A stretch of 23,413 nt of DNA from a virus: positions 1 to 23,413 of IMG/VR virus record IMGVR_UViG_3300015263_000257; one strand, 5' to 3'. Positions 2,624-4,414 of the stretch are shown here, one piece after another. Positions within the stretch are counted from its first letter, which is position 1, and each line of letters starts with the position of its first letter. The notes below the pieces were generated by a model that had not been told where the DNA came from, did no database searches, and worked only from the letters and a program-made list of their open reading frames with translations. The translations under genes and the position numbers were made by a program.

Positions 2624-2749
2624 GGGATGCTTACCGCAACTTGAAGCTATATGGAAACTATGGGTCGTTGGTTCGAATCCAACCCTCCCGGCCATTTATC
2701 GGGAGGTAGCTCAGCTTGGTAGAGCAATAGACAGCAAAAAGTGCATCCC
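2624..2749 (+). ncRNA. Permuted tRNA-like RNA element 3 (Pro type)
   Basis: Closing stem GGGATGC (2624-2630) / GCATCCC (2743-2749), then TTACCGCAA at the family spacing. The 3' half comes first: TGGAAACTAT, variable GGGTC, T arm GTTGG-TTCGAAT-CCAAC, acceptor strand CCTCCCG, G, CCA. A five-base linker TTTAT leads straight into the 5' half, CGGGAGG (seven perfect acceptor pairs), TA, D arm GCTC-AGCTTGGTA-GAGC, and ATAG, which pairs with CTAT of the 3' half. C1-G72 is typical of tRNA-Pro, and TGG stands at the anticodon position, though base 33 is A rather than T. It is circularly permuted with a closed acceptor hairpin, and the anticodon stem opens into the closing stem. Confidence 0.88.
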
Positions 2750-3001: not shown

Positions 3002-4414
3002 ATGTCTTTTAAGAATGCCGTACTCGCAACTCCTGTTAAGGCCCGCACTACCAATGGTATGAAGGCTATCCGTTCAACTCTTTCCGAGACCGTTGATCTA
3101 TTCTTCAAGATCGGTGCTTCACGTGGTAAGAACATTACCTCACAGTTTGAACGCGCCTATCAGGAAGATCGTGATGTGGCTCTTCGTATCGCACAGTGGG
3201 CACGTGATGCTCGCGGCGGTGCCGGTGAGCGTGAGCTTTTCCGTCAGGTACTTCGTTACCTAGAAAAGAACCACAAGGAAGACTTGATTGAAACTCGTCT
3301 TCTAAAGAACACTGCTGAAATTGGTCGTTGGGATGATCTTTTGATCTTTACTGATGCCGAAGTCAAGCAGATTGCTTTCGGTCTTATCCGCGATGCTCTA
3401 GAGGCTGGAAACGGTCTTTGCGCTAAGTGGATGCCTCGTAAGGGCGAGAAGGCTGTAGAGCTTCGTGAGTTCCTTGGTTGGTCTCCTAAGTTCTATCGTA
3501 AGCGTCTTGTCGAGCTTACTGGCGTTGTAGAGAGCAAGATGTGTGCGAAGTGTTGGAATGAAATTAACTTTTCCCATGTTCCTTCACTTGCTATGTCTCG
3601 TTATTCCAAGGCATTTGGTCGTAATGCTCCCGATGCATTCACCAAGTACAAGGAAGCATTGAAGAAGGGTGATCCTTCTGTTAAGGTCAATGCAGGTGCT
3701 GTTTACCCATATGATATCGTGAAGAACGTACATTATGGTGACAACAAGCTTGCCGATGAACAGTGGAAGGCTCTGCCTAACTTCATGGGTGATGCCATGG
3801 TTCTACCACTTGTTGACGTTTCTGGTTCTATGACTGCTCGTGTAGGATCAGCAAACAGCAAGGGTGTTACTCTTACCTGTCTAGACGTTGCCGTTTCTCT
3901 TGGTTTGTATTGTGCAGACAAGAACACTGGTCCCTTCAAGGATTTGTTCTTGACCTTCTCAACCAACCCAACCTTCCAGCACTTGAAGGGTACCCTTTCC
4001 CAGAAGGTTAACCAGCTTCGTCGTGCTGATTGGGAAATGTCAACCAACCTACACGGTGCCTTCAACGAAATCTTGAAGGTAGCAGTTCGTAACAAGGTTG
4101 ATCCTGCTGATATGCCTAAGGTTCTCCTAATCATGTCAGATATGCAGTTCAACCAGTGCACCAAGTTCGATAACAGCGCGATTGAAATGATCCGCCGTAA
4201 GTACGAGGAAGCCGGTTACGAAGTTCCTGCTGTAGTCTTCTGGAACATCAATGCCTACGATAATGTTCCTGTGAAGTTCGATGAGAAGGGCGTTGCTCTT
4301 GTCTCTGGATTCTCACCAGCGATCATGAAGGCGGTACTTGGTGCTGATCTAGAAGGTCTAACACCAGAAGCAGTAATGCGTAAGGCAGTAATGTCTGACC
4401 GCTACACTCTTTAA
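3002..4414 (+). CDS. Ro60-like RNA-binding protein (TROVE/DUF2828 plus vWA domain)
   Basis: The 470 residues have the two-part plan of Ro60: a helical-repeat RNA-binding domain (about 25-260) and a von Willebrand A domain (about 265-460). Family signatures are RDARGGAGER (68-77) and INFSHVPSLAMSRY (188-201). The vWA metal site shows as DVSGS (272-276), a later Thr in STNLHGAF and Asp in MSDMQ. In bacteria, Ro60 (Rsr) binds Y RNAs and misfolded RNAs and can tether nucleases. Here the gene directly follows the array of tRNA-like RNAs, separated by 20 bases from the last, with GGAGAA before its ATG. Codon choice looks like that of a well-expressed gene. A terminator follows. The TROVE versus DUF2828 label is uncertain; the two groups look related. 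Confidence 0.85.
   Translation: MSFKNAVLATPVKARTTNGMKAIRSTLSETVDLFFKIGASRGKNITSQFERAYQEDRDVALRIAQWARDARGGAGERELFRQVLRYLEKNHKEDLIETRLLKNTAEIGRWDDLLIFTDAEVKQIAFGLIRDALEAGNGLCAKWMPRKGEKAVELREFLGWSPKFYRKRLVELTGVVESKMCAKCWNEINFSHVPSLAMSRYSKAFGRNAPDAFTKYKEALKKGDPSVKVNAGAVYPYDIVKNVHYGDNKLADEQWKALPNFMGDAMVLPLVDVSGSMTARVGSANSKGVTLTCLDVAVSLGLYCADKNTGPFKDLFLTFSTNPTFQHLKGTLSQKVNQLRRADWEMSTNLHGAFNEILKVAVRNKVDPADMPKVLLIMSDMQFNQCTKFDNSAIEMIRRKYEEAGYEVPAVVFWNINAYDNVPVKFDEKGVALVSGFSPAIMKAVLGADLEGLTPEAVMRKAVMSDRYTL

Follow-up and report, generated by a model that had tools for sequence, protein, structure and literature searches.

The segment at positions 2624–2749 of a 23,413-nucleotide stretch of viral DNA (IMG/VR record IMGVR_UViG_3300015263_000257, the whole of which is called the window here) reads as a tRNA-Pro whose 3' half precedes its 5' half. 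This raises the question of whether it encodes a tRNA, the remains of one, or an RNA that imitates a tRNA. The window is part of a T4-like phage (genes for gp32, gp59 and the late co-activator are present), and IMG/VR contig L002 represents the same virus, with 100% identity across 10.4 kb. We conclude that the element, designated E3, is very probably a Y RNA, small and non-coding, that belongs to a phage Ro60 particle.

Structure of the permuted element

E3, like all window features given coordinates in this and the next two sections, lies on the plus strand. It is enclosed by a 7-bp closing stem in which GGGATGC (2624–2630) pairs with GCATCCC (2743–2749), the latter followed by GTAGA. Past the 5' strand is a conserved loop, TTACCGCAA (2631–2639), for which the family consensus is NTNC[AC]GCAA. 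Next comes TGG (2652–2654), which the sequence and an IMG/VR pattern scan indicate to be a Pro anticodon remnant in an opened anticodon loop; the base directly before it, equivalent to base 33, is A (2651). A 4-bp remnant of the anticodon stem is formed by CTAT (2658–2661) with ATAG (2727–2730). Within it are the T arm, GTTGG-TTCGAAT-CCAAC (2667–2683), the acceptor 3' strand CCTCCCG (2684–2690), G73 (2691), CCA (2692–2694), a TTTAT linker (2695–2699), the acceptor 5' strand CGGGAGG (2700–2706) and the D arm, GCTC-AGCTTGGTA-GAGC (2709–2725). The T loop is TTCGAAT and the D loop contains GG; both arms were also matched by the Rfam YrlA model, and both acceptor strands, with the G73, CCA and linker between them, were also assigned from the comparison of acceptors described below. 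The CCA is encoded, but internal.

Direct reading confirmed what the preliminary description had reported of the permuted order (CCTCCCG-G-CCA, TTTAT, CGGGAGG), the perfect acceptor stem (7/7 Watson-Crick pairs), the intact T and D arms, and the opening of the anticodon loop into the closing stem with A as base 33. Its C1-G72 pair of Pro type was also confirmed; the discriminator is G73, while A73 is usual in bacterial tRNA-Pro. Judged from the sequence, the only Pro-like features of E3 are C1-G72, the D loop and the anticodon remnant.

ARAGORN called no tRNA in E3, and the closed 7-nt anticodon loop with U33 expected of a functional tRNA-Pro is absent from it. A plain free tRNA, or an artefact of a tRNA cluster, was ruled out by the silence of ARAGORN and the open anticodon loop. 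Minimum-free-energy folding alone did not return the cloverleaf (−31 to −36 kcal/mol for the intended fold vs −39 kcal/mol for the minimum-free-energy fold), and the fold of E3 therefore rests on comparison, not energy. No promoter-like site was found directly 5' of E3.

An array of six elements

E3 does not stand alone as a permuted tRNA: it is one member of an array of six (E0–E5) that share a closing stem and C[AC]GC loop and lie 5' of an open reading frame at 3002–4414. A scan of the window for a closing stem leading into C[AC]GC, with a matching 3' strand leading into GT[TA][GT]A, returned six elements on the plus strand and one on the minus strand, compared to 0.6 in shuffles. E0 (96–230; scan) has the same closing stem and loop motif as E3 and a module of ~120 nt. 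E1 (1852–1948; scan and Rfam) is a Y element whose module is a degenerate tRNA with its parts in the normal order; its Rfam tRNA score of 26.8 bits is below the cut-off of 29, and its anticodon loop, CTGCAAA, is intact. E2 (2191–2444; scan and folding) has a permuted tRNA core in which ACCA is intact and a structured insert of ~125 nt (fold z −3.4) separates the CCA from the 5' acceptor strand; E2 has homologues in loci L003 and L004, where the insert is 76% identical. E3 itself, a Y-RNA element with a permuted tRNA-Pro-like core, was supported by its sequence, Rfam, the scan and the acceptor comparison. E4 (2814–2909; scan and folding) has a T arm and an acceptor-like stem without a D arm, and ~10 nt 5' of it the promoter scan identified a sigma-70-like promoter, TTGACA-17-TATCAT (2775–2803). 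E5 (2919–2981; scan and loop test) is a short Y element bearing an apparent mimic of an anticodon stem-loop, TTGA-CTTGTAA-TCAA. Short open reading frames are interspersed among the elements, and the array stops shortly 5' of ORF 3002–4414.

As far as could be checked, DUF2828-linked arrays holding several sorts of tRNA piece have not been described, while the tRNA-mimic kind of RNA is already known. With the same proviso, what is new here is the arrays with swapped modules, including clade-limited anticodon-stem-loop mimics, and a Pro-type lineage with a Pro anticodon remnant.

The downstream gene encodes a predicted Ro60-like protein

The product of ORF 3002–4414, the putative binding partner of the elements, matched Pfam DUF7788 and DUF2828; there was no Pfam TROVE match. 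It has relatives in 682 phage records, some annotated as Ro-like RNA-binding protein, and is less than 60% identical to every one of them. A PDB sequence search gave only a weak match (E 0.016), and recognition of the Ro fold consequently required a structure model. The AlphaFold model (pLDDT 78) was compared to known structures, with Foldseek also run, and its matches to Ro60 structures had Z scores of 18.6 to 12.1 over 370–392 aligned residues: 18.6 for TROVE 9kop, 17.1 for the Thermus phage Ro60 9l5y, 14.5 for human Ro60 and 12.9 for D. radiodurans Rsr. Matches to single-domain vWA proteins were lower (Z 11.2 or less). According to the model, the protein has a full-length HEAT-ring and vWA Ro60 fold. 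It thus has its fold and gene family in common with phage Ro-like (DUF2828/TROVE) proteins, including the Ro60 of Thermus phage phiLo (PDB 9l5y), from which it differs in its low identity and in the lack of a Pfam TROVE match.

Comparison with YrlA and other permuted RNAs

Chen et al. (2014) reported Y RNAs next to Ro60 in over 250 species of bacteria and phages, with at least one tRNA-like Y RNA per species. The permuted Y RNA YrlA comprises a stem that tethers Rsr/Ro60 and a domain resembling tRNA in its D, T and acceptor arms, is modified by DusA and TruB, and binds PNPase (PMC8394870). Structurally, YrlA corresponds to a circularly permuted tRNA (PMC11472068). Phages carrying YrlA have been reported (PMC7765460), and RNAs of the Y kind have featured in earlier phage reports (PMC7765460, PMC7824862).

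The Rfam YrlA model (RF02553) matched E3 at 2659–2732 with 41.2 bits (E 8e-7), where the cut-off is 69. The match covers model positions 23–88, the tRNA-like part, and model positions 1–22 and 89–114, the Ro-binding stem, were unmatched in E3, which has a different conserved stem and loop where that stem would stand. By Rfam's rule, as applied to the sequence, E3 is not a member of RF02553. By analogy, it most likely works like YrlA: it has the permuted T arm, closed acceptor and D arm of a YrlA-type domain, and, as expected of a Y RNA in the wide sense, it is encoded beside a Ro60 orthologue. A true YrlA used as a control (92 bits) had an outer stem, internal loop, inner stem, T arm, closed acceptor and D arm, which is the architecture of E3, and true YrlA was found four in tandem in one bacterial genome. 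In four genomes with DUF2828 genes, the YrlA search gave sub-threshold matches only; a class-wide search found true YrlA.

In common with YrlA (RF02553; Salmonella YrlA, PDB 6CU1), E3 has an outer stem that would bind Ro, an asymmetric internal loop and an inner stem, followed by the permuted arms, and its gene is near that of the Ro60 orthologue. The two differ in their stem and loop motif (NTNC[AC]GCAA ... GTTGA in E3 vs CGAAUGC ... CUUGUCG in YrlA), in the anticodon stem and Pro anticodon remnant that E3 has kept, in the sub-threshold Rfam score of E3, and in the partner, which for E3 is DUF2828-type and not TROVE by Pfam. Permuted tmRNA (RF04321), which occurs in the same virus, resembles E3 in that its 3' acceptor strand comes first, and the CCA and a spacer lie between it and the 5' acceptor strand. 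It differs in that the D arm of E3 is standard, the spacer of E3 measures 5 nt, and E3 has a Y closing stem and no tag-coding part. In red algae and archaea, circularly permuted tRNA genes likewise have the 3' half ahead of the 5' half; unlike those genes, E3 had no splice motif that we could see, and its anticodon loop opens into a Ro-type stem.

Conservation in related phage loci

At least one element was present 5' of the Ro-like gene in 87/87 related viral loci examined. The coding strand of these loci held 253 elements and the opposite strand 46, the scan being loose enough that part of the 253 are chance matches. The closing stem was a requirement of the scan, so its pairing is not independent evidence of covariation. 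The consensus of the elements is TTTT, [AG]GGATNN and NTNC[AC]GCAA, then, after the module, the stem and GTTGA. A sigma-70-like site ended within 30 nt upstream of 44 of 161 elements, vs a control mean of 3.8 and maximum of 10. Outside the clade, 12 of 16 cultured phages had one or more elements in the region scanned around the Ro-like gene, and the scan found none in that region in the other four; some of these outside elements have been annotated as tRNA-Ser, tRNA-OTHER or pseudo-tRNA. Searches with DNA only led to a Ro-like gene at all three inspected phage matches that had informative annotation, and two further phage matches adjoin unannotated genes of ~1.4 kb.

Acceptor pairing is kept while CCA is mostly lost

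To the closing stem we can add the pairing of the acceptor, which was analyzed in T-arm-to-D-arm cores with a short linker, 27 of which carry a Y-like stem, using 136 tandem tRNAs as controls. Six or seven of the seven acceptor pairs formed in 21/27 Y-stem cores, compared to mostly one to five in the controls. There were 25 different acceptor sequences among the 27 cores, and when partners were swapped among them only 2.2 cases on average had six or seven pairs. Read from these sequences, the acceptor stem in Y-stem cores is kept by covariation. A chance stem as the origin of E3 was ruled out by this pairing, the window shuffles and the 87-locus scan. NCCA was present in 4 of the 21 well-paired cores (two of them from the same virus) vs 123/136 tandem tRNAs. 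Since the acceptor stems pair while the CCA is mostly lost, charging appears not to be the point of these elements.

When IMG/VR was scanned for the Pro-type core by DNA pattern, with no use of protein sequence, 80 loci were returned: 52 were permuted-only, and in the other 28 the acceptor strand belonging to an ordinary tRNA lay upstream. NCCA was found in 11/52 of the former vs 14/28 of the latter. A Ro-like ORF occurred in 27 of the 52 permuted-only loci, on the same strand each time and mostly within 1 kb. Among loci with 2.5 kb of flank on both sides, the Ro-like gene stood beside 11/17, vs 0/10 linear-tRNA controls. The opened loop contained a Pro anticodon remnant, NGG[AG]A, in 27/52 permuted-only loci vs 5.3 expected, an enrichment because of which we consider the Pro label sound. 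The remnant would be either conserved or repeatedly acquired.

These findings bear out the earlier proposal that E3 is a mimic of the YrlA kind and not a free, chargeable tRNA, which gained support from the Rfam YrlA match to its tRNA-like part, the architecture of the true YrlA control, the gene for a protein of predicted Ro60 fold just 3', and the relatives that lack NCCA yet retain acceptor pairing.

Proposed role of E3

We propose that the Ro60-like protein from the downstream gene probably docks on the closing stem and the conserved C[AC]GCAA loop. At its opposite end, E3 would have a tRNA-Pro-derived body in which the Y stem takes the place of the anticodon loop and a short linker seals the acceptor end. 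If this body adopts a tRNA-like three-dimensional shape, and is modified accordingly, it could show the T/D elbow and acceptor stem to tRNA-binding proteins of the host or phage. It would be neither charged nor used in translation, and may either draw a partner protein to the Ro ring or compete for that partner. Mimicry of tRNA is already known for the Y RNAs of bacteria. A phage family with several different tRNA-like pieces on one docking stem offers natural variants that could show which tRNA features matter in Y-RNA mimicry. Phage Y arrays may also link Ro60 particles with phage-host conflict over tRNA.

Anticodon-like loops and a possible purpose of the mimicry

The short elements provide evidence on what such mimicry might be for. 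In a test for 7-nt loops of the form [CT]T NNN [AG]A carried by four or more Watson-Crick pairs, 18 of 62 distinct short elements were positive vs 0.80 ± 0.89 after shuffling (400 shuffles, maximum 4), the pattern having been noticed beforehand in three of the tested loci (window/L002, L010 and L013). The loops carry at least ten different triplets. Based on these diverse C/U-U-NNN-R-A loops, the array's anticodon loops and tRNA bodies might occupy or sequester host anti-phage tRNA nucleases as decoys. That the modules of the close relatives L003 and L004 are not alike is consistent with such a role, as is the fact that competitive inhibition of an anticodon nuclease was named as one possibility for YrlA by the authors of the Salmonella rtcBA/YrlA study (PMC7790460). 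Nonetheless, the class was absent from the 16 short elements of other phage lineages (0/16), E3 has no closed anticodon loop, and no candidate target nuclease is known here. Nor was it supported that the anticodon arms had been copied from tRNAs bearing the matching anticodon, the stems being no closer to those tRNAs. We regard the decoy role as unlikely; it concerns the purpose of the mimicry and is compatible with E3 being a Y RNA.

We can also speculate, on a broader but still doubtful footing, that the Ro60 loci of this clade are cassettes holding exchangeable mimics of tRNA parts (permuted bodies, anticodon stem-loops and T-arm pieces) on one Ro-docking stem, and that the set serves to decoy or bait host enzymes by which tRNA is cut, modified or degraded.

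Nine-base hairpin loops were also enriched in short elements, in loci L044–L103 (35 vs 12.6 in shuffles), and often contained CATA.

Improbable alternatives: a permuted tRNA gene or tRNA debris

E3 could instead be a permuted tRNA gene whose linker is removed by RNase P and by trimming at the 3' side, so that a chargeable tRNA-Pro-like RNA in two pieces, ending in CCA, would result. Permuted tmRNAs are known to be cut at the corresponding position, and the permuted tmRNA of this same virus has an insert like that of E2 between the CCA and the 5' acceptor strand. The G-CCA is intact in E3, CCA is also present in E2 and its L003 and L004 homologues, and similar CCA-TTTAT-CGG linkers occur in L030 and Rhizobium phage TM30. 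With the CCA-TTTAT linker intact and a permuted tmRNA in the virus, E3 might be trimmed at the linker. Against a tRNA gene are the opening of the anticodon loop into the closing stem with A as base 33, the absence of NCCA from most relatives that have kept their acceptor pairing, and G73 in place of the A73 usual in tRNA-Pro. Based on these features, we judge a tRNA gene to be very improbable.

The varied and partly degenerate modules (E1 and E4), and the phage tRNA genes often near related loci, would suit pseudogene debris, i.e., tRNA fragments thrown by recombination near phage tRNA clusters and stabilized by chance stems, but this is scarcely credible given the closing-stem family in all 87 loci, the acceptor covariation, the promoter-like sites and the fixed orientation relative to the Ro gene.

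Neighboring RNAs and genes

Several other RNAs and genes were observed in and around these loci. In L002, ~0.6 kb 5' of the start of the window, positions 2156–2443 hold the permuted tmRNA (76.7 bits, cut-off 47), for which ARAGORN gave the tag VAANDNDIMDMRLAA and whose spacer resembles the insert of E2. Directly past E0, at 240–318 of the window, is an ordinary tRNA with a CUA anticodon (amber suppressor type); such a tRNA was present in 12/87 related loci, and TAG ends 0/26 window genes. A long near-perfect hairpin at 735–807 lies 5' of ORF 805–1188 and had Rfam matches at chance level only. At L010:1453–1554 a complete, normal-order tRNA-Gly(TCC) without CCA is located inside a Y closing stem, and at L018:2464–2707 (Vibrio phage BUCT194) two tRNA-like bodies are interleaved, a permuted one holding within its acceptor end another in linear order. 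A gene for an RtcB-like tRNA ligase is found ~1.3 kb past the Ro-like gene of Listeria phage LP-048 (L108:4843–5494), and an RNA ligase gene precedes the Ro-like gene in Serratia phage BF (L112).
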